From positions 1-23,660 of IMG/VR virus record IMGVR_UViG_3300020395_000107: a DNA stretch of 23,660 nt; one strand, 5' to 3'. This document shows, one piece after another, positions 11,593 to 20,327 of this stretch (position 1 is its first letter; the number at the start of each line of letters is the position of its first letter). The stretch comes from a virus. The position numbers and the translations under genes are program-made. Below the pieces are notes generated by a model that was not told where the DNA came from, did not search any database, and saw only the letters and a list, made by a program, of their open reading frames with translations.

Positions 11593-13650
11593 TTAACTAA
11601 CACAATCAATAACTTGCTTGACTTCACCTTGGAATGGTGGTCTTGGCTTTAATTGTGGTTTTAATATAGCACCATAACCATTTTTAGTATTAATCGTCAA
11701 TTCTGGAAGATCCTTAATACCATTTACATTTGCTACTGCAGAATCTGGAGGAAGAACATTCAAAATTCTACCATCATCATCAACATAGATTGTGTATGGA
11801 TTTCCATCACCATCACTAATAGTATCATTTCTATCATAATCCTGACCAGGATTAACAACTATCACATGATCAACTGCTAATTGATCTGTTACTTGAGGAC
11901 CTTTTATAGGATAGTTTTCACCCTCAGAAACAACATAAATGTCAGTTACTTGTTGATATGTAGGAGAAGATTCATCATAATCAATAACTGCTCTAGCTAT
12001 TCCACCATACCCTTGACCACACTCATCAGTGATTTCTACAAATGGTGGAGTATTATATCCAGATCCACCACTTTCCATATCAATACCAATAAGACTTCCA
12101 GTTGCTGCAGCACCTTCACCAACAATAGAACCCAATATTGCTTTACCAATAGCACCTTTACCATTACTTCCAAATATATTAACTTTTACTCCAGCACAAC
12201 TTAATGGAGGACCTGCATAACATTCCCCAAGTGGACTCTTAAATCCAGGAACAGAAACACTTGGATTTAAGAAATCAAATACACCTAAAGACCCACCAGC
12301 AATACTTAAATCCTGAACACCACCAACTAAACTTTGAGTTAAACTATCTGCAGTATTTGCAGCACTTAAAATTTTATCAACAGAAATACCAAGAATATTT
12401 TTTGGACCTTTACCAATTACCCATTCATTCGTCTTCGCCTCAAGAGTCTTCTGTGGTTTATCACATTGTCCAACCTTAGCAATTGCTAACAAACCCTCTG
12501 CTTTTGATCTAAGGAATCCACCTAGACTAAATCCACCTAATATTTTACTTACACCACCTAAAAGAGGACCAAGTGCTTTGGTAATACCACCAATAATTTG
12601 ATTCATCAATCCACCTACAAATTGATCACCAATACAAGAAACAAAATTCTTCACATTATCCATCATACCTTTCAATAATCCTTTAATTGCATCACCCAAA
12701 CCACCAACTATATTATTAACAGCACATCCTAAGAAATTTTGAATAGCACCGATACCAGGAACCATAGCAGTTTGTGCTGCTGCACCTGCCCTTGCAGCAA
12801 TTGATCTACTCTTAGTAGCAGCAAGAACTTTTCCATAAACAGATTTATATAATTTATCTAATCCACCATTTAATTTAGGAGCTAATCCCTTGTAAGTTGA
12901 ATTAACCATATTACCAACTAAACCAGATGCTAATCCACTAATCTTATCAACCTTTTCACTAAGCATACCCATCTTTTGAGTTGCTGTTGAAAATGGAATT
13001 TTACTAACAAGAGATTCAACTTCTGCCTTTACTTTAGAAATTGTAGCAGATCCAGATGAACTACCAAATACAACAGTTTGACCTATAGCAGTACTAACTG
13101 CCCTTTCAGCAATTCCCGTTGCTTCTTCAATTTTCTTTGCTAATTCTGGAGAAACTGCTCTAGGTGATTTCTGTGCTTTCTTACCTGATTGATCTCCTAC
13201 TTCATTCTTAAGAATATATGTATTATCATTTTTAATTTTACTTGTATATCCAGTAAATGGAGTAAATGGACCTTTGTATTCATCACTAGGAGAATATGCA
13301 GTATTACCAAATATACCTATAATAACAGGTAATTGTGCATCATCACCATCTAAAAAGAATCCTAATACACTATCACCTGGTGATAATCTAAGTGATTTTG
13401 CACGATTCGCTTTACCAGATCCTGCTTGAGGTGATAATAATACTTGTGCCCAGGGAAGATCTTCATCTTTAAGTTCTACAGTATTTTGAGGATGATACCC
13501 CATAATACGAACTTTAACTCTATTTCCCCACGCAGCAGCAGTCTGGTTTAATTGATCCTCTTGAGCTTTCTCAGGTGCTACTTGACCGATCCACCATCTG
13601 AATCCGTCCCTACCAATAAAATTACTTTGTATTATAGATTCTTCTATCAT
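11593..13650 (-). CDS. gp5: Baseplate hub gp5-like protein, OB-fold, no lysozyme domain (685 aa)
   Basis: This is a hub subunit expected to bind the gp27 ring. Residues about 10-120 resemble the gp5 OB-fold: GQVAPEKAQ, VKVRIMGYHP, DLPWAQVLLSP, a loop, then LRLSPGDSVLGFFLDGDDAQLPVIIGIFGN. This pattern is shared by gp5 and VgrG-type spike proteins. T4 gp5 continues with a lysozyme domain and a beta-helix; neither is visible here. Instead residues about 150-480 are Ala/Gly/Ser-rich with several hydrophobic stretches. From about residue 530 there is a Gly-rich domain with GGSGYNTPPFVEI and GYGGIARAVI, then SEGENYP and NPGQDYDRND. The spike is encoded by the next gene. The first bases overlap the gp27 stop as ATGA, indicating translational coupling. 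Confidence 0.85.
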   Translation of the reverse strand: MIEESIIQSNFIGRDGFRWWIGQVAPEKAQEDQLNQTAAAWGNRVKVRIMGYHPQNTVELKDEDLPWAQVLLSPQAGSGKANRAKSLRLSPGDSVLGFFLDGDDAQLPVIIGIFGNTAYSPSDEYKGPFTPFTGYTSKIKNDNTYILKNEVGDQSGKKAQKSPRAVSPELAKKIEEATGIAERAVSTAIGQTVVFGSSSGSATISKVKAEVESLVSKIPFSTATQKMGMLSEKVDKISGLASGLVGNMVNSTYKGLAPKLNGGLDKLYKSVYGKVLAATKSRSIAARAGAAAQTAMVPGIGAIQNFLGCAVNNIVGGLGDAIKGLLKGMMDNVKNFVSCIGDQFVGGLMNQIIGGITKALGPLLGGVSKILGGFSLGGFLRSKAEGLLAIAKVGQCDKPQKTLEAKTNEWVIGKGPKNILGISVDKILSAANTADSLTQSLVGGVQDLSIAGGSLGVFDFLNPSVSVPGFKSPLGECYAGPPLSCAGVKVNIFGSNGKGAIGKAILGSIVGEGAAATGSLIGIDMESGGSGYNTPPFVEITDECGQGYGGIARAVIDYDESSPTYQQVTDIYVVSEGENYPIKGPQVTDQLAVDHVIVVNPGQDYDRNDTISDGDGNPYTIYVDDDGRILNVLPPDSAVANVNGIKDLPELTINTKNGYGAILKPQLKPRPPFQGEVKQVIDCVS

Positions 13651-14960
13651 TTTTTCTTAGGTCCGAATGTATCTCTTAATAAAGTTAATGAAGTATAAGA
13701 TCCAGTACTATCAAAATAATGACATAGTTCCTTAATCATATATAGTCCACTTTGCTCATTATCAACTTTAACACTCTTCTCCAAATTAACACTAGAAAAT
13801 TTGCATTTTATTAAATCACCAGCTTTTAAATTAGTATTTGAAGGAATCATCATACTTATAGTTTGAGTTGTTATTAATCCATACCTCATCATAGTTTGAG
13901 ATTGGATTTTAGCTGGATCTGCATTACTCTTTGTAGATGCATTCTTCTCTAATGTTCCAATATCAAGTACAGCAGTAATATTTCTACTAGGAACATCACC
14001 TAAAGTCTTATCACTATCATTATCTAATCCTGGTAAGGATACTTGTTTACCTAAATTTTCTGCCTTTCCTGCATAATTTTCTAATTTAAATAACCCCTTT
14101 TCAGGATTAGTGTATGTAAAATTAAGTGGATTAAAAAATATTCTATGACTACAAAATGCACCATGTTTTAATTTTCCCATCATATCTTGATTTTTATCTG
14201 TAGCATATTTTAATATTCTATAATCGTTAATTGGATTATTGTGGTCAATATCACCAGGAGTAAAAATATACTCCTTTTTATATGGTTTTTGAGCAATTAA
14301 TTGATCTATAGATTTAAACTTATATCCATCTTTAGTTTCAAAAAATACATATCCTGCTGTTGCATCTTGACCAGAAATTGTACCTGGTACAGATTTTGAT
14401 GCCAACCACATTAAAACTGTAAATGGTTTTCTCAAATTACCAAGAAATCCGTATGGATTTTCAGTTTTATCACACTCAATATTCTTTTTTGATTTTAAAT
14501 AATTTGTAACTATATCTTTTACACTATCAGAGATTGAAAAAGATGCTGGATATTTTTTACCAACTCTAGATGTTTCATTAGATAATGCTTCTCTTGGAAC
14601 TAAATTTAAAGTAAATGCCTCCTTTTCATTATCAACAATAACATTTGTAATACTAGAAACAAACCAAGGAGATTTAATAAAATCTAATCCTGGATTATCA
14701 TTAGAATTACCTGCTATTTTTAAAGATACTCTTTCCCCACCTCTAAGAGGTAATCCATTATATATGGATTGCATATTACCGTCAGGTCCTTTAATACTAT
14801 TTCCAGTATTAGAAACTACTATTTTAGCGGTTAAATTTGGTGAAAATATATCTTCATAATAAAAAACACCAATCGTACCTCTAGATATATCTACCGATTT
14901 TGATCTATCAGCAGACTCTATTACAACTTCTTCGTAAATTGATTTATCTATAGCTGACAT
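13647..14960 (-). CDS. gp27: Baseplate hub subunit gp27
   Basis: gp27 forms the trimeric torus at the centre of the baseplate that holds gp5 and continues into the tail tube. The 437-residue length is somewhat above T4 gp27 (about 390). Near the N-terminus VDISRGTIGVFYYEDIFSP and LTAKIVVSNTG fit the first tube-like barrel, and PWFVSSITNVIVDNEKEAFTLNLVPREAL fits a continuing strand pair; PFTVLMWLASKSVPG lies in the middle. The late motif SGLYMIKELCHYFD is typical of hub proteins in which the last strands close the second barrel. The position directly before gp5 with a four-base overlap, and directly after the tape-measure-like genes with no gap, matches marine T4-like order. Identification rests on these motifs and strong context. 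Confidence 0.85.
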   Translation of the reverse strand: MSAIDKSIYEEVVIESADRSKSVDISRGTIGVFYYEDIFSPNLTAKIVVSNTGNSIKGPDGNMQSIYNGLPLRGGERVSLKIAGNSNDNPGLDFIKSPWFVSSITNVIVDNEKEAFTLNLVPREALSNETSRVGKKYPASFSISDSVKDIVTNYLKSKKNIECDKTENPYGFLGNLRKPFTVLMWLASKSVPGTISGQDATAGYVFFETKDGYKFKSIDQLIAQKPYKKEYIFTPGDIDHNNPINDYRILKYATDKNQDMMGKLKHGAFCSHRIFFNPLNFTYTNPEKGLFKLENYAGKAENLGKQVSLPGLDNDSDKTLGDVPSRNITAVLDIGTLEKNASTKSNADPAKIQSQTMMRYGLITTQTISMMIPSNTNLKAGDLIKCKFSSVNLEKSVKVDNEQSGLYMIKELCHYFDSTGSYTSLTLLRDTFGPKKK

Positions 14961-16472
14961 TTATGTAAAAGATAACTCTGATAATTGTACAAGTTCTACC
15001 ATATTTAATGAACTTCCAGAACTGGGTATAGATTTTTTAGATGATGTTGTCATTTGAGGTGGAGATGAAGATCCACCACGATTAATGGTATTATTCATCA
15101 TTATTACTGTTGTTTTTGGTTTTCTTTTACCACTGTTTATTTTCTCCAATTTAGTTTTCGCTTCATCAATTTTTGGTCTAATAATCTCCCCTATAGATTC
15201 AATATCTTTAGTAAATTCATCAATAGGAAAATCATTTAATTTATCAAACGGTAATTTACCAACCTGATCCATAGCAGCATTTATACCAGACATCATCTCA
15301 TCTGATTTAAAATTAGAAATAGCATCCTTAAAAGAATCTAAATCAATACCCTGTTTTGCTTCATTTAGCGATTCTTTTATTGAAGATAATTTACCACTAT
15401 TAAACATTTTTAAAAATTCTTTATTCTTTTCTGCTATTTCTTTTTGAATAACAAATTCACCTTTAGTTAATTTTGCTGGAATTTGATCAATTCCACTTAC
15501 ACCTTTAACTTCACCACCCTTATTGAACATAGTGAATCCACTCTGATCAAGAGCCTTATCTTGTTCTGCATCTATTTCACCAGAAGTATCTGAACCATCT
15601 AATCCTCTTACATCTGGACCTTTATCTAAATCTTCAGGTTTTGGTGCAACTTCAACTCCTTCAATATTTTCTTCAGGTTTATTTTGTTCTGATTCATCTT
15701 CTTCAACTTCATTCTTCTCATCAGTAGAAGGTTCTTCTTGTTGCTCTTCTTCAGGTTCTGGATTTGGAAATAAATCAAGAACATCCCACCATTGATTGTC
15801 ACCACCATCAGGATCAATATCAAAAGATGGCAAATTAAAAGTCTTTGGATCCGATAGTTCTTTGTATGCACCTAAGAATTGTTTATTTAATTTGAAAAAT
15901 CCAGACTCCGTTTTTTCTAATTCTTCTTTTAATTTCTTTTCTTCACTATCAATCTCAATTCCAGTTATTTGTCTTAAAACTCCACCTAACTGTTCACCAA
16001 ATCCAAGAAGTACATCTCTAACATTACCAATAAAATTAGTTAATACTGAAACTGTTTTTTGAATATTTGTAATTAATTGAGTTACACCTCTAATTATTGA
16101 AGGTAAAGTTCTAATTAACCATCCAATTAATATAATTCCAAAGAAGTCTAATATTCGACCAAGAAATCCTTTAGTACTAGTAGAAAGTATACTTCCCTGC
16201 TTTTTAATAACTCCTCCTGCTGTTGCTGACTCAATTTCATCTTCTCTTTGTCTTCTTCTAACAGCCTCTCTTCTCTTTCGGAAGAACTTATTGTCATTCC
16301 CTATAAGAGTTCTCTTAAACTGATTTGATTCACCCGTTTGTTTAACAATATCAGACGCATTTTTTCCAGCATCACGTAAACCTTTACCAAAATTACCAAC
16401 AGATTCCCTTATACCCTTAATACTAAGAGATGATTTAAATAAAGAATTTCTAACTGCTTGCTTATTTGACAT
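14961..16472 (-). CDS. Tape-measure-like tail protein, second of a pair (503 aa)
   Basis: The probable role is a tape measure or hub-associated protein inside the tail tube. Residues 1-65 are polar, 64-78 are very basic (RKRREAVRRRQR), and 102-135 form a hydrophobic segment with GFLGR and GWL that could span a membrane. Residues about 235-272 are strongly acidic. Residues about 318-360 contain GGEVKGVSGIDQIPAKLTKG followed by EFVIQKEIAEKN, close to the G-x-D-x-(V/I)-PA-x-LT-x-GEFV motif common in tape measure proteins. The short C-terminus ends in LVQLSELSFT. Composition and hydrophobic core resemble the 528-residue protein encoded just upstream, separated by one base. The start directly follows that gene's stop, and its own stop abuts the gp27 ATG. 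T4 places gp29 in a similar gene neighbourhood. Confidence 0.7.
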   Translation of the reverse strand: MSNKQAVRNSLFKSSLSIKGIRESVGNFGKGLRDAGKNASDIVKQTGESNQFKRTLIGNDNKFFRKRREAVRRRQREDEIESATAGGVIKKQGSILSTSTKGFLGRILDFFGIILIGWLIRTLPSIIRGVTQLITNIQKTVSVLTNFIGNVRDVLLGFGEQLGGVLRQITGIEIDSEEKKLKEELEKTESGFFKLNKQFLGAYKELSDPKTFNLPSFDIDPDGGDNQWWDVLDLFPNPEPEEEQQEEPSTDEKNEVEEDESEQNKPEENIEGVEVAPKPEDLDKGPDVRGLDGSDTSGEIDAEQDKALDQSGFTMFNKGGEVKGVSGIDQIPAKLTKGEFVIQKEIAEKNKEFLKMFNSGKLSSIKESLNEAKQGIDLDSFKDAISNFKSDEMMSGINAAMDQVGKLPFDKLNDFPIDEFTKDIESIGEIIRPKIDEAKTKLEKINSGKRKPKTTVIMMNNTINRGGSSSPPQMTTSSKKSIPSSGSSLNMVELVQLSELSFT

Positions 16473-16473
16473 A

Positions 16474-18060
16474 TTACGCTAACGATACTCCATAGAATTT
16501 TGATGCTAAAACAGTTGGATTGTCAAGATTTTTAGACATTATAAAGGGAAGAGTATTTCCTTGAGATCTAGGAGGTGGACTAGCAGAAGCACCACCACCA
16601 TCATTCCCACCACCAATTTGTTGATTACTTGTAATTATATTTGGTGATGGTTCTTCCAAAGAAGATATATTTTCTGCAACATTAACTTCTCTTTTCTTAC
16701 CTTCAAATAAACCACCTTTCTTATCAAAATCAAATGCATCACCAGTAACAAAATCAGCAGTTCCTTTAACAATTCTCTGTCCTGTAGAATCTCCTCTCTT
16801 ATCAAAATCAGTTAATCCACCAGTTAGAAAATCACCAAATCCAGCAAGACCTCTCATAAACCCTTGTGGTTTATTTGATTCATTTGCTAATTCTCTTTCC
16901 CTGATAAGATCTTCTTCTGTTATTGGAGTCATCATTGATGGCATAATATTTCCATCACCAACTTCAGAAGATATATTTTCATCAGTAGATTGACTGGTAT
17001 TCTCACCACTAATATTAGAACCTTTACTCTTAGGTTCTCCAATAAGTAAACCACGAGTAGTTGAAAATACTAAAATATCTGATAATATTTTTCTAATAAG
17101 ACTAACTTTAGGACCCATAGCCCTATCAACTATTATAGATGCACTACCAGCCATAATATTTGCTAGAGCTGCATTTTCTCTTCCCTCAGCCGCATCAAAC
17201 ATATATGAAATTCCACCACCCAAAACACCACCAGTTATCCTAGATCCTGTTTTCCCTCCAATTGCTTGAGTAACTTTATTTCCACTTTGTTGTGCTGCAG
17301 TTCTCGTAATATTTTGAGTAGCAGCATTAGTAAGACCTGTAGCACCTCTTGTAGCAATTCCTTTAAAACCCCGCTTTAAAACATTAATTAAAGCTTTAAC
17401 TGGTGCCAATATTAAATTACCAGCAACTGCCCTAAGAACATTACCACCTAAAAGTCCTACACTCTGAACTAATCTACCAAATGCTAATTTAGTAGCAATA
17501 AGAGCACCACCTACTATTAATAATCCTTTTATAGTATCATTTCTTATCTTTTTGAATAGAGTAATATTACCATCAGATCTCGCTATGAGCATCCGAACAA
17601 TCTTATTACTCAACCATCCACCAACCATTATAAAGAGGAAATTAGATAATCTACCTAATATTCCCTGTGCCTTTGCTGCTATTCTTTTAGCTGGAGAAAG
17701 TAAAGCATTTTGTATCTTTGCTTCTATCTGACTTTCCTTTCCTTCTCTTAATCCTTGTTCTGCTAATTGTCTATCTCTTGCTTGCTTCGCTGCTTCTCTT
17801 TGCTGCTCTATCCTATCAGCAATTTCTAAATTAGATTTAATTACAGATAATGAAAAATTTAATCTACCTACATTCTCACTAATAGAAGATAACTGTTGTG
17901 ATACAGTGCTTAATGTTAAGGAATTTTGAGATATTAAATTCGTTGTTATTGTATCTGGTTCAGTTGTTGGGGGAGTAGGTCGTCCCGCAAAGACACTAGA
18001 AGATACCGTATTCCTAACGGCACTAATTCCTCCTGATATTGGTGATGCTATTTCAGCCAT
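16474..18060 (-). CDS. Tape-measure-like tail protein, first of a pair (528 aa)
   Basis: The probable role is a tape measure or hub-linked internal tail protein. Residues about 40-115 are helical and coiled-coil-like with many Q, E and R. Residues 133-158 are a hydrophobic core with the pattern GxLGRxxxFxxIxxxGWL, matching residues 102-119 of the next protein. Further hydrophobic stretches follow around 178-215 (GLLIVGGALIATKLAFG). The C-terminal part has two related phrases, DFLTGGLTDFDKRGD and DFVTGDAFDFDKKGG, then a Gly/Ser/Pro-rich linker and a short hydrophobic end. The ATG overlaps the end of gp51 by eight bases (ATGGCTGA), which implies translational coupling. No close T4 counterpart is recognisable; gp29 is the functional analogue by position and composition. 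Confidence 0.7.
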   Translation of the reverse strand: MAEIASPISGGISAVRNTVSSSVFAGRPTPPTTEPDTITTNLISQNSLTLSTVSQQLSSISENVGRLNFSLSVIKSNLEIADRIEQQREAAKQARDRQLAEQGLREGKESQIEAKIQNALLSPAKRIAAKAQGILGRLSNFLFIMVGGWLSNKIVRMLIARSDGNITLFKKIRNDTIKGLLIVGGALIATKLAFGRLVQSVGLLGGNVLRAVAGNLILAPVKALINVLKRGFKGIATRGATGLTNAATQNITRTAAQQSGNKVTQAIGGKTGSRITGGVLGGGISYMFDAAEGRENAALANIMAGSASIIVDRAMGPKVSLIRKILSDILVFSTTRGLLIGEPKSKGSNISGENTSQSTDENISSEVGDGNIMPSMMTPITEEDLIRERELANESNKPQGFMRGLAGFGDFLTGGLTDFDKRGDSTGQRIVKGTADFVTGDAFDFDKKGGLFEGKKREVNVAENISSLEEPSPNIITSNQQIGGGNDGGGASASPPPRSQGNTLPFIMSKNLDNPTVLASKFYGVSLA

Positions 18061-18232
18061 TGTTTGATTGTTGTGCCTTTAAATTTTCTTCCTCAATGTA
18101 ATTTTGTAAAAGTGAAAGATAAATTTCCCTTTCCCACGGAATCATATTCTCAAGCTCTGTTAAACTATATTTATGGTGTTGCATTAAGGCAAAATTTATC
18201 TTGTAGTATGACGCAAGATCTTCATGAGCCAT
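18053..18232 (-). CDS. gp51: gp51-like baseplate hub assembly protein, very short (59 aa)
   Basis: This small frame starts at an ATG two bases after the gp26 stop and ends with a TGA inside the first codons of the 528-residue gene. It encodes a peptide beginning MAHEDLASYYKINFALMQHH. The central phrase HHKYSLTELENMIPWEREIY is the recognisable conserved part of T4-like gp51 proteins. In T4, gp51 is needed to build the baseplate hub but is not found in the finished particle, and it is much longer (about 250 residues from memory), so only a core helix region remains here. Position between gp26 and the tape-measure-like genes repeats the T4 order 26-51. The tight junctions on both sides and the conserved phrase make it a real gene despite its size. 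Confidence 0.8.
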   Translation of the reverse strand: MAHEDLASYYKINFALMQHHKYSLTELENMIPWEREIYLSLLQNYIEEENLKAQQSNNG

Positions 18233-18234
18233 AC

Positions 18235-18954
18235 TTATCCGAAAAAACTCTGTAATCCCTCCAATACAACTTCATTTTCCTTTTTAGTATTAGGATTAAT
18301 AACCTTTACTGTATGTGATAATTTAGGCATAGTTTCAAAGAAATTTTCAATTTCCTTAAATTGCTTAGAACTTAATTGTTCAACAAATTGAGACAATTCT
18401 TTCTTAGTGCAATCTTCCGCAGTCCAAGATTCTTCTTCAGAATAAACTTGTTCAATACAAGATGCAATCAAATCAAAAGTATCATCAACATTCATCTCTG
18501 TTGCAGAAGCAAAATTATTTTTAATAAATTCATCTAATGATGGATACTTCATCCTTAAGGTTAATGTATCATCTAACTTAATATCTTGAGAATGATTTTT
18601 ATCAATCTTTATTTGAATATCATCTAAGTTAATAAGTGCTGGTACTTGAGTCTTGCCATCATCAGGACAAGTTACCATAACTTCAACATCTTCTCCCACA
18701 GATTTACCTCTGATATTAAGGAATAGATATTCAATATCAAATGTAGATAATGCAGAAATTTTAACTCCTCTTGTTGTAATACAAGATGAAATTACATCTT
18801 TCACAGCATTTGCTATCATTTTAGTATCTTCGCTTTCCATCGCCAAGATAAGTATTTTTTCTTCCTTAACTAAAAAAGGTCTAAATTTAATTTTCTTTTT
18901 TGTAGAAGGAATAACCAACTCATAAGATGGTGTTGCAATCTTTGGTAAAGGCAT
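18235..18954 (-). CDS. gp26: Baseplate hub subunit gp26
   Basis: This is the T4 gp26 family baseplate hub component. The signature near the N-terminus is PSYELVIPSTKKKIKFRPF followed by LVKEEKILILAMES. Further along are CITTRGVKISALSTFDIEYL, LNIRGKSVGE and the phrase VTCPDDGK. The 239-residue length is slightly above T4 gp26 (208). It has no signal peptide or membrane segment. The gene opens a hub transcription unit: a perfect TATAAATA lies 22 bases before the ATG, and the gp51, tape-measure-like, gp27 and gp5 genes follow with gaps of two bases or less. The ATG at 18954 gives the canonical N-terminus. Identity is firm from motif and gene order; the exact biochemical role within the hub is known only for T4. 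Confidence 0.9.
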   Translation of the reverse strand: MPLPKIATPSYELVIPSTKKKIKFRPFLVKEEKILILAMESEDTKMIANAVKDVISSCITTRGVKISALSTFDIEYLFLNIRGKSVGEDVEVMVTCPDDGKTQVPALINLDDIQIKIDKNHSQDIKLDDTLTLRMKYPSLDEFIKNNFASATEMNVDDTFDLIASCIEQVYSEEESWTAEDCTKKELSQFVEQLSSKQFKEIENFFETMPKLSHTVKVINPNTKKENEVVLEGLQSFFG

Positions 18955-18998: not shown

Positions 18999-19859
18999 TT
19001 ATAATGCCCTACCTTCACTTATAGTTTTCCAAGAAAATTGTGAGGGTCCTGGATCCTTAAAATAATTAGTCTTTGATAATGCTTTTGCTATATCTTGATT
19101 CGCTCCACTATTAAGAATAGAAACATCACTAAGAAAAGCCTGCTTAGTAGTAAGAGTACCAAGATCTTTTGAATCAAGATTGTAAGCATTAGATTTGTCA
19201 GATGCTTTATTATTAAGATGAACTCCCCTATCTCTCTGTGCTGATAAGGTTCCACCTGCAACGTGTCTATCATAACTAAAAGTTGCAGATGCTTTTAATA
19301 CTTGAGAATTTTGATAAGTTACTTGAGTGGAATTTAAACTTAAAGGGAATAATCCTTTAAATGTATATTCAACATACTGTCTATAATTCTTTTCAAATTT
19401 TATTATTTTAGTTTGATTTGATTTATAATCTTCAGGATACCTCATTCTAATATGATAATTAGTATCATTTAATGGATCTGAAGTTCCACCATCACTAATA
19501 TATTCCATCCAATGCTCTAAAAACTTAAGGGATTTATAATCATTATCAACATAAAATTCAAGATCAATTACAGTATAATTTTTTGTATGTGCCATTTTTT
19601 CAACCATACCCTGATATTCTCCAACAGCATTCACAGTTGCATGAGAACTTCCTGGTAATGATGCAGAAGAACATAATAACCCGATAGTTTCAGTATGAAA
19701 TCTCATATCAACTCCTTTACGTTGAAGATGAGATCTTAGATTTTCACCACCACCTGCTCCTGTCGGAAGAGCAAACTGAACATAATAATTAGAAGTTTGA
19801 GCAACATTTTGGAATGTTGGTAATATCTGGGATATTTTCTTTGGTATTGGGCGTGTCAC
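18999..19859 (-). CDS. gp54: Baseplate tail tube initiator, gp54/gp19-type (286 aa)
   Basis: The protein belongs to the T4 gp19 tail-tube fold group. Visible features are NYYVQFALP near the start, then GLLCSSASLPGSS, KNYTVIDLEFYVDNDYKSL, FLEHWMEYI and FKGLFPLSLNSTQVTYQNS. Length (286) is nearer to T4 gp54 (320) than to the tube protein gp19 (about 160), and hub and gp48 genes flank it, so I call it the gp54-like initiator that sits on gp48 and starts tube assembly. I choose the GTG at 19859-19857 (MTRPIPKKISQ). An ATG at 19925 would extend the gene by 22 residues across the divergent promoter pair and into the gp4 coding sequence, which is unlikely. No in-frame ATG exists between them. A second gp19 paralogue is the alternative. 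Confidence 0.75.
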   Translation of the reverse strand: MTRPIPKKISQILPTFQNVAQTSNYYVQFALPTGAGGGENLRSHLQRKGVDMRFHTETIGLLCSSASLPGSSHATVNAVGEYQGMVEKMAHTKNYTVIDLEFYVDNDYKSLKFLEHWMEYISDGGTSDPLNDTNYHIRMRYPEDYKSNQTKIIKFEKNYRQYVEYTFKGLFPLSLNSTQVTYQNSQVLKASATFSYDRHVAGGTLSAQRDRGVHLNNKASDKSNAYNLDSKDLGTLTTKQAFLSDVSILNSGANQDIAKALSKTNYFKDPGPSQFSWKTISEGRAL

Positions 19860-19860
19860 T

Positions 19861-19868
19861 CTAAATAG
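19861..19868 (+). promoter_or_regulatory. Late-promoter-like octamer CTAAATAG before gp4
   Basis: CTAAATAG on the + strand ends 24 bases before the gp4 ATG at 19893. It forms an exact inverted repeat with the octamer at 19885-19892, separated by 16 bases. Confidence 0.7.
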
Positions 19869-19884
19869 TTTTACTATATCATTT

Positions 19885-19892
19885 CTATTTAG
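19885..19892 (-). promoter_or_regulatory. Late-promoter-like octamer CTAAATAG before gp54-like gene
   Basis: Read on the - strand this is CTAAATAG, 25 bases before the proposed GTG at 19859. On the + strand it directly abuts the gp4 ATG at 19893, so gp4 translation begins inside the opposing promoter region. Confidence 0.7.
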
Positions 19893-20327
19893 ATGGCTTA
19901 TAAAGGAAAATATCGACCATCTCACCCACGAAAGTATAAAGGTGACCCAACAGAAATAACCTTTAGATCATTATGGGAAAGAAAATTTATGATTTACTGT
20001 GATTCCAATGTTAATGTATTAGAATGGGCAAGTGAAGAAATTGCTATTCCATATCGTGGTCCTGATGGAAAACCACATCGATACTTTCCAGACTTCTATA
20101 TGAAAGTAAAAGAAAGTAATGGTTTAATAAAAAGGTATATTATAGAAGTTAAACCACTAAAACAATGTGCTCCACCCAAAAAACCAAAAAGACAAACTAA
20201 AGGATATATTCGTGAAGCGTTTGAATATGCTAGAAATCAAGCAAAGTGGAAAGAAGCGAGAGAATGGTGTGCTGATAGACAATGGGAATTTAAAGTGGTT
20301 ACTGAAAAAGAATTAGGTATAAAATAA
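19893..20327 (+). CDS. gp4: Head completion protein gp4, nuclease-fold
   Basis: T4 gp4 is added to the DNA-filled head before tail joining. The 144-residue length matches T4 gp4 (150). The sequence has the nuclease-like core found in this family and in TnsA-type enzymes: E29 in WERKFM, D67 in YFPDFY, and E85-x-K87 in YIIEVKP, in the right order and spacing. The opening MAYKGKYRPSHPRKYKGDPT is basic and typical of the family. A late-promoter-like octamer lies 24 bases before the ATG, and the stop overlaps the next ATG by one base (TAATG). Catalytic activity is not proven for the family as far as I recall, but the acidic residues are intact here. Confidence 0.9.
   Translation: MAYKGKYRPSHPRKYKGDPTEITFRSLWERKFMIYCDSNVNVLEWASEEIAIPYRGPDGKPHRYFPDFYMKVKESNGLIKRYIIEVKPLKQCAPPKKPKRQTKGYIREAFEYARNQAKWKEAREWCADRQWEFKVVTEKELGIK

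Follow-up and report, generated by a model that had tools for sequence, protein, structure and literature searches.

Two adjacent minus-strand genes, X and Y, located in a virus record of 23,660 bases (hereafter the window), probably code together for the tail tape measure of the phage, two paralogous proteins being used in place of one (probability of about 0.55). X (528 aa; 16474..18060, minus strand) is transcribed ahead of Y (503 aa; 14961..16472, minus strand), and the positions and sizes reported for both ORFs in an earlier note on this DNA agree exactly with the ORF calls. On the basis of its genes, the window was identified as the tail cluster of a Kyanoviridae-type T4-like cyanomyovirus. 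Its minus strand successively codes for a tail-tube protein in a gp54-like position (18999..19925; PHROG 45, 1e-36; Pfam Phage_TTP_2, 6e-17), a gp26-like baseplate hub protein (18235..18954; Pfam T4_baseplate, 4e-77; PHROG 150, 9e-83), a gp51-like hub assembly protein of 59 aa (18053..18232), X, Y, a tail hub protein in the gp27 position (13647..14960; PHROG 350, 1e-99), a gp5-like baseplate hub and tail lysozyme (11593..13650; PHROG 1922, 1e-140) and the fibre proteins; the plus strand carries gp4, gp2, gp48 and gp53. The gp51-like gene was assigned by its position and size, which are those of the annotated gp51 of P-SSM2 and other phages; it follows gp26 and shares the 8 bases at its 3' end with the start of X. 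With 59 aa it is under the usual length cut-offs and is absent from gene lists using one. Past the hub genes, several large collagen-repeat or fibre-like proteins (373, 1400, 331 and 1428 aa) are encoded between 144 and 11030. The same gene order was found in P-SSM2, in which X (529 aa) and Y (516 aa) are both annotated as hypothetical. X of the window is 46.9% identical to PSSM2_016 (T4-GC 13) over residues 1-194, and Y is 40.8% identical to PSSM2_017 (T4-GC 14) over residues 10-166.

Judged by sequence comparison, X and Y are paralogues of common ancestry. A direct BLASTP comparison gave an E-value of 7e-5 with 51/196 identities. Profiles of X and Y were built separately, each from its own relatives, and their alignment by HHalign, the profile-profile check proposed in the earlier note, revealed a highly significant similarity (99.0% probability, E=8.3e-18) over 167 almost gap-free columns, which pair residues 41-207 of X (17440..17940, minus strand) with residues 7-174 of Y (15951..16454, minus strand). 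The similar region is therefore longer than the one on which the earlier note had based the relationship. Furthermore, the X profile matched 74 of the 133 Y proteins at E<1e-3 (best 2e-21), for one match each among 266 reversed and 266 locally shuffled sequences, and the Y profile matched none of either control set (0/266 and 0/266). The profile alignment and these nearly negative controls place the similarity well beyond chance. A chance or compositional resemblance between two unrelated coiled-coil, hydrophobic proteins could be argued from the low pairwise identity and from the helical, repetitive composition; in view of the essentially negative controls, the collinear 167-column match and the reciprocal profile matches, it can be regarded as already refuted, with a negligible residual probability.

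The GWL-type core motifs were found at the residues given by the earlier note, as GILGRLSNFLFIMVGGWL at X133-150 (17611..17664, minus strand) and as GFLGRILDFFGIILIGWL at Y102-119 (16116..16169, minus strand). G148 and W149 are nearly invariant among 57 X proteins; among 37 Y proteins, R106 and G117 are invariant and G102, L104, G105 and W118 nearly so. A regular-expression scan located a GG-V-G---DQIPAKLTKGEFVI module at Y313-342 (15447..15536, minus strand), with the GEFV motif at Y332-341 (PAKLTKGEFV). The assertion that only the second gene carries this motif holds within the window but not in the family, in which the motif is commoner in X (41/133) than in Y (13/133). GEFV was consequently rejected as a marker of the true ruler, and the use of this motif as a sign separating a ruler from a plug falls with it.

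The gp26 neighbourhoods were collected from IMG/VR and GenBank, and the 185 loci with a gp27-like gene downstream were compared. Exactly two genes separate gp51 from the gp27-like gene in 176 of these loci, one gene in 8 and three in 1, and the order gp26-gp51-X-Y-gp27-like-gp5 is conserved in the window and in the 176 loci. X and Y thus sit in the slot beside the hub genes, a positional trait of the tape-measure class, and show the traits of the Kyanoviridae X-Y pair, i.e. adjacent genes, a homologous N-terminal core and X before Y. Of the 206 proteins that the X or the Y profile detected, 203 scored higher with the profile corresponding to their position, and a core tree in which X and Y were held as separate clades reached a likelihood above that of the free search. 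X and Y have different C-terminal tails, which are found again among relatives. X and Y behave like sister families of ancient origin, and the simplest account of them is a single old duplication, after which each family evolved separately. The S-PM2, S-CREM2 and P-RSM6 groups lie outside the reach of the window-centred profiles and were equated with X and Y by position and by intermediate profiles, some matches of the latter being shared enzyme or motif modules rather than the core. In one IMG/VR locus (L319:5706-14164), three tandem genes (827, 950 and 1039 aa) code for one X-type and two Y-type proteins, the latter 29-33% identical to each other, indicating that the ruler cluster has expanded again. 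The Y gene of S-SKS1 (NC_020851, L014:8987-10628) is annotated as two ORFs in different frames, its reading frame being interrupted in the record, and the GWL core falls in the unannotated stretch separating them.

Relatives of both X and Y, although a minority of them, match tape-measure PHROGs; PHROG 3547 (tape measure) is matched by 7/57 X and 5/37 Y relatives. For X and Y of the window, no tape-measure profile passed in the PHROG, Pfam and NCBIfam searches, NCBIfam returned no matches, and no match to PF25671 (T4_Tape_measure), against which T2 gp29 scores 1363 bits, was obtained at E<=0.1. Profile searches of the PDB with X and Y gave only weak coiled-coil or chance matches. AlphaFold2 predicted helices at 37-163, 166-216 and 218-240 in X and at 2-84, 96-170 and 175-207 in Y, the remainder being of low confidence and roughly half of each model having a pLDDT <50; the N-terminal helices of both models are in register with the sequence alignment. 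In fold comparisons with predicted viral structures, for which the models are too uncertain to be of use, the sole match of X was an S-T4 protein (7.9e-7), and none below 0.001 was obtained for Y. Hydrophobic segments of membrane-spanning character were observed at X176-198 and Y102-127; among the relatives, 79% of the X and 72% of the Y proteins have such segments.

The presence of X and Y in the virion was seen in relatives only, namely S-CREM2 and S-SCSM1. In S-CREM2, ORF208 and ORF209 (X and Y) were detected by mass spectrometry with 73 and 71 unique peptides, counts which, at similar protein length, are consistent with a similar abundance and do not represent a stoichiometry. The records of S-SCSM1 label both X and Y as virion protein. 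The 30 proteins listed in the virion proteomics of S-SZBM1 do not include its X and Y. Cell-wall hydrolases are frequent on X and Y relatives, usually with a different enzyme on each partner: X carries GH19 and Y lysozyme in S-N03 and S-CREM2, S-SCSM1 has glucosaminidase and VanY, and the record names of S-CREM1 indicate M15 and NlpC/P60; in S-SRM01, M23 is found on Y only. No enzyme domain was detected on X or Y of the window by PHROG and Pfam profile searches, which indicates that the enzymes are optional additions to a constant rod, so that lysis cannot be the conserved function. Names such as 'endolysin' on these proteins stem from the passenger domain. In OR473000 (154483-163554), NC_070959, NC_048049, MK867354 and OP535465, this domain accounts for the public names of X and Y proteins (endolysin, chitinase, lysozyme, M15 or VanY peptidase); PHROGs 7, 90 and 3572 are labelled endolysin yet include X and Y proteins.

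Among 132 non-redundant pairs, the length of X varies between 412 and 1565 aa and that of Y between 350 and 1456 aa, and the logarithms of their lengths are correlated (Pearson r=0.78, n=132). With phylogenetically independent contrasts the correlation was r=0.61, a value reached by none of 10,000 permutations; the length of the gp27-like neighbour is weakly correlated with that of X or Y (0.30 and 0.24). When the short and the long class are taken separately, the X/Y correlation drops to rho 0.26 and 0.40, so part of the covariation corresponds to the split between small and large forms, and another part may come from shared gains of enzyme domains. The Y/X length ratio extends from 0.75 to 1.32 (5-95%), and unequal pairs exist, such as those of S-PM2 (1167/749 aa) and of a further locus, L192 (759/439 aa). 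Taken with the common ancestry of the two proteins, their joint length change suggests one two-part ruler inside the tail.

The earlier note had also proposed to compare tail length with the length of each gene across relatives. Reported tails are about 100 nm (sheath) for S-SRM01 (X/Y 536/636 aa; PMC8557907), 113.6 nm for S-SZBM1 (893/780 aa; PMC9146016), 124 nm for MS29 (932/990 aa; PMC10436341), 129 nm for S-H34 (936/735 aa; PMC7472177), 138 nm for S-N03 (933/722 aa; PMC7472177), 165 nm for S-CREM1 (1016/991 aa; PMC9964418), 173 nm for S-SCSM1 (950/1131 aa; PMC9602691) and 418 nm for S-CREM2 (1565/1456 aa; PMC10665884), which has the longest X, Y and tail of the set. Both genes appear to track tail length: without S-CREM2, the tail increases with the mean of X and Y by 0.145 nm/aa (intercept 9 nm, r=0.84, p=0.019, n=7), these seven tails having been measured by different groups, S-N03 and S-H34 being close kin, and S-PM2 and syn9 being left out of the regression. 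With S-CREM2, which is off this line, r is 0.93 and the slope 0.36 (n=8). The rise of an α-helix is 0.15 nm per residue. The similarity of this value to the 0.145 nm/aa slope is the reason for preferring that X and Y probably run side by side and not end to end, the mean and the sum of X and Y being statistically a single predictor (slope of 0.072 nm per residue against the sum, without S-CREM2). Applied to the window phage, the n=7 line gives an expected tail of ∼84 nm (0.145 x 515.5 + 9). The 418-nm tail of S-CREM2 is about 1.8 times the mean of its X and Y multiplied by 0.15 nm (227 nm) and nearer to the sum (453 nm); unlike the other tails compared, it exceeds the single-helix span of either paralogue (X, 235 nm). 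In response to the suggestion that tail length might follow another gene, the sole candidate examined was ORF124 of S-CREM2, the 2668 aa of which would span 400 nm at 0.15 nm per residue. It was rejected as an alternative ruler, since it belongs to a different conserved family (PHROG 358), has a strand-leaning and not helix-like composition, and lies in the baseplate-wedge region.

Scattered Kyanoviridae lineages (L098, L108, L142-L146 and L282) have a single gene in the slot. In the one-gene relatives S-CRM01 (864 aa), S-WAM2 (about 855 aa) and HTVC008M (687 aa), the length of the gene is close to that of one partner and not to the X+Y sum. The tail of S-CRM01 measures 140-170 nm, as expected if a single full-length ruler is enough. 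The HTVC008M gene, I899_gp020, has been deposited as putative tail tape measure and matches seven tape-measure PHROGs at E<1e-7 (best 8e-12). Like X and Y of the window, it occupies the slot after gp26 and gp51, and it is matched by the P-RSM6 X profile (3e-7); unlike in the window, there is one gene, and the gp27-like and gp5 genes are on the other strand. S-CRM01 and the L142-L146 group have segments in common with X and Y of other phages but only one gene. A simple X-plus-Y fusion was not supported as the origin of the one-gene form, S-CRM01 being a mosaic of X-like and Y-like pieces. The S-WAM2/L142-L146 group was unmatched by the window-centred X or Y profiles but shows a weak N-terminal match to Y of the S-PM2 group.

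Outside this family, the single 590-aa gp29 that the earlier note had cited for T4 was confirmed in its sibling T2. The T4/T2 gp29 (PF25671) resembles X and Y by its place in the late hub cluster near gp26, gp51 and gp27, by its comparable size and by its helix-rich character, which in X and Y is predicted, but it is a single gene with no detectable sequence similarity and a different local gene order. In the siphophage TP901-1, the tape measure has conserved ends, a variable middle and hydrophobic regions, and its length tracks tail length (PMC5099701). These features recur in X and Y, the tracking of tail length less certainly, whereas the TP901-1 protein is encoded by one gene, serves a non-contractile tail and has no core in common with X and Y according to the tools used. 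Tape measures with tail-associated lysin domains have been described, for example in enterococcal phages (PMC10194240); there, as in relatives of X and Y, a cell-wall hydrolase domain forms part of the ruler, but that ruler is single, whereas in the relatives of X and Y the enzymes are often spread over two paralogues, and the window copies carry none. The pair probably works like a tape measure and occupies the slot of one, but it does not belong to the T4 gp29 sequence family.

The earlier note had left two options for the pair, a hetero-oligomeric ruler or one ruler with a hub plug or channel protein. The paralogy, the tape-measure slot, the tape-measure matches and virion presence of relatives and the apparent tail-length tracking support the proposal in part, and the choice between the two options leans by inference towards the hetero-oligomer, because the lengths of X and Y covary. 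A division of labour, in which only one paralogue would act as ruler while its partner, serving as hub plug, pilot or channel protein, would occupy the same lumen but not determine its length, is unlikely but the most probable of the alternatives: X and Y became separate families at an ancient duplication, their C-terminal tails differ, their enzymes are usually not the same, and the Y/X ratios and unequal pairs given above leave room for it. Yet the length of a plug restricted to the hub would not have to follow that of the other protein, the covariation survives phylogenetic correction, and tape-measure profiles are matched by relatives of both X and Y.

Much less probable is an end-to-end ruler, in which X and Y would act in series and their sum would set tail length. 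It is retained because S-CREM2 fits it (3021 aa x 0.15 nm = 453 nm for a 418-nm tail); as a general rule it was rejected, the seven other pairs being over-predicted by ∼1.75- to 2.3-fold (log2 error -0.81 to -1.21), and the 864-aa protein of the one-gene S-CRM01 argues in the same direction. We give marginally less credit still to X and Y as virion-associated lysins or other internal tail proteins, with another gene as the true ruler. The many relatives annotated as endolysin, lysozyme, chitinase or peptidase, the window proteins without family match and the calculated span of S-CREM2 ORF124 speak for it, but X and Y of the window bear no enzyme domain, enzyme domains within tape measures are a known arrangement, ORF124 has the family, composition and location described above, and in HTVC008M the slot beside the hub holds an annotated tape measure.

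If X and Y form a hetero-oligomeric ruler, they would be in contact, side by side along the whole tail lumen, perhaps as a 3+3 complex; they would be present in equal numbers and both would set tail length. By comparison with other tape measures, their C-terminal tails may anchor them on the gp27-like/gp5 hub, and the stacking of tube rings around them would stop once the N-terminal helical ends are enclosed, thereby fixing the length of the tail. During infection both proteins would be ejected, and the hydrophobic core segments could aid the crossing of the inner membrane; where hydrolase domains exist, X and Y would each deliver an enzyme. At slightly less than even odds, this organization extends to the whole family as an ancient, duplicated heteromeric ruler made of two non-identical strands of matched length running the whole tail, with different enzymes on the partners in many members and hence two hydrolases per tail, and with lineages that collapse to one gene or expand to three.

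Our search for a paper on paired tape measures found none in the open-access literature, most subscription journals being outside its scope. The report on S-CREM2, which describes the longest cyanomyovirus tail reported, never mentions a tape measure (PMC10665884). In the records of T4-like cyanophages, the tail ruler has so far gone unnamed, its candidates appearing as hypothetical protein, endolysin, chitinase or peptidase. These phages are among the commonest viruses of the ocean. With the X/Y pair named, hundreds of genomes acquire a candidate ruler, and tail length can be predicted from sequence. Furthermore, with a natural two-protein ruler made of distinct partners, it could be asked how many strands the ruler contains and which strand stops the tube, questions that are hard to address with a homo-oligomer.
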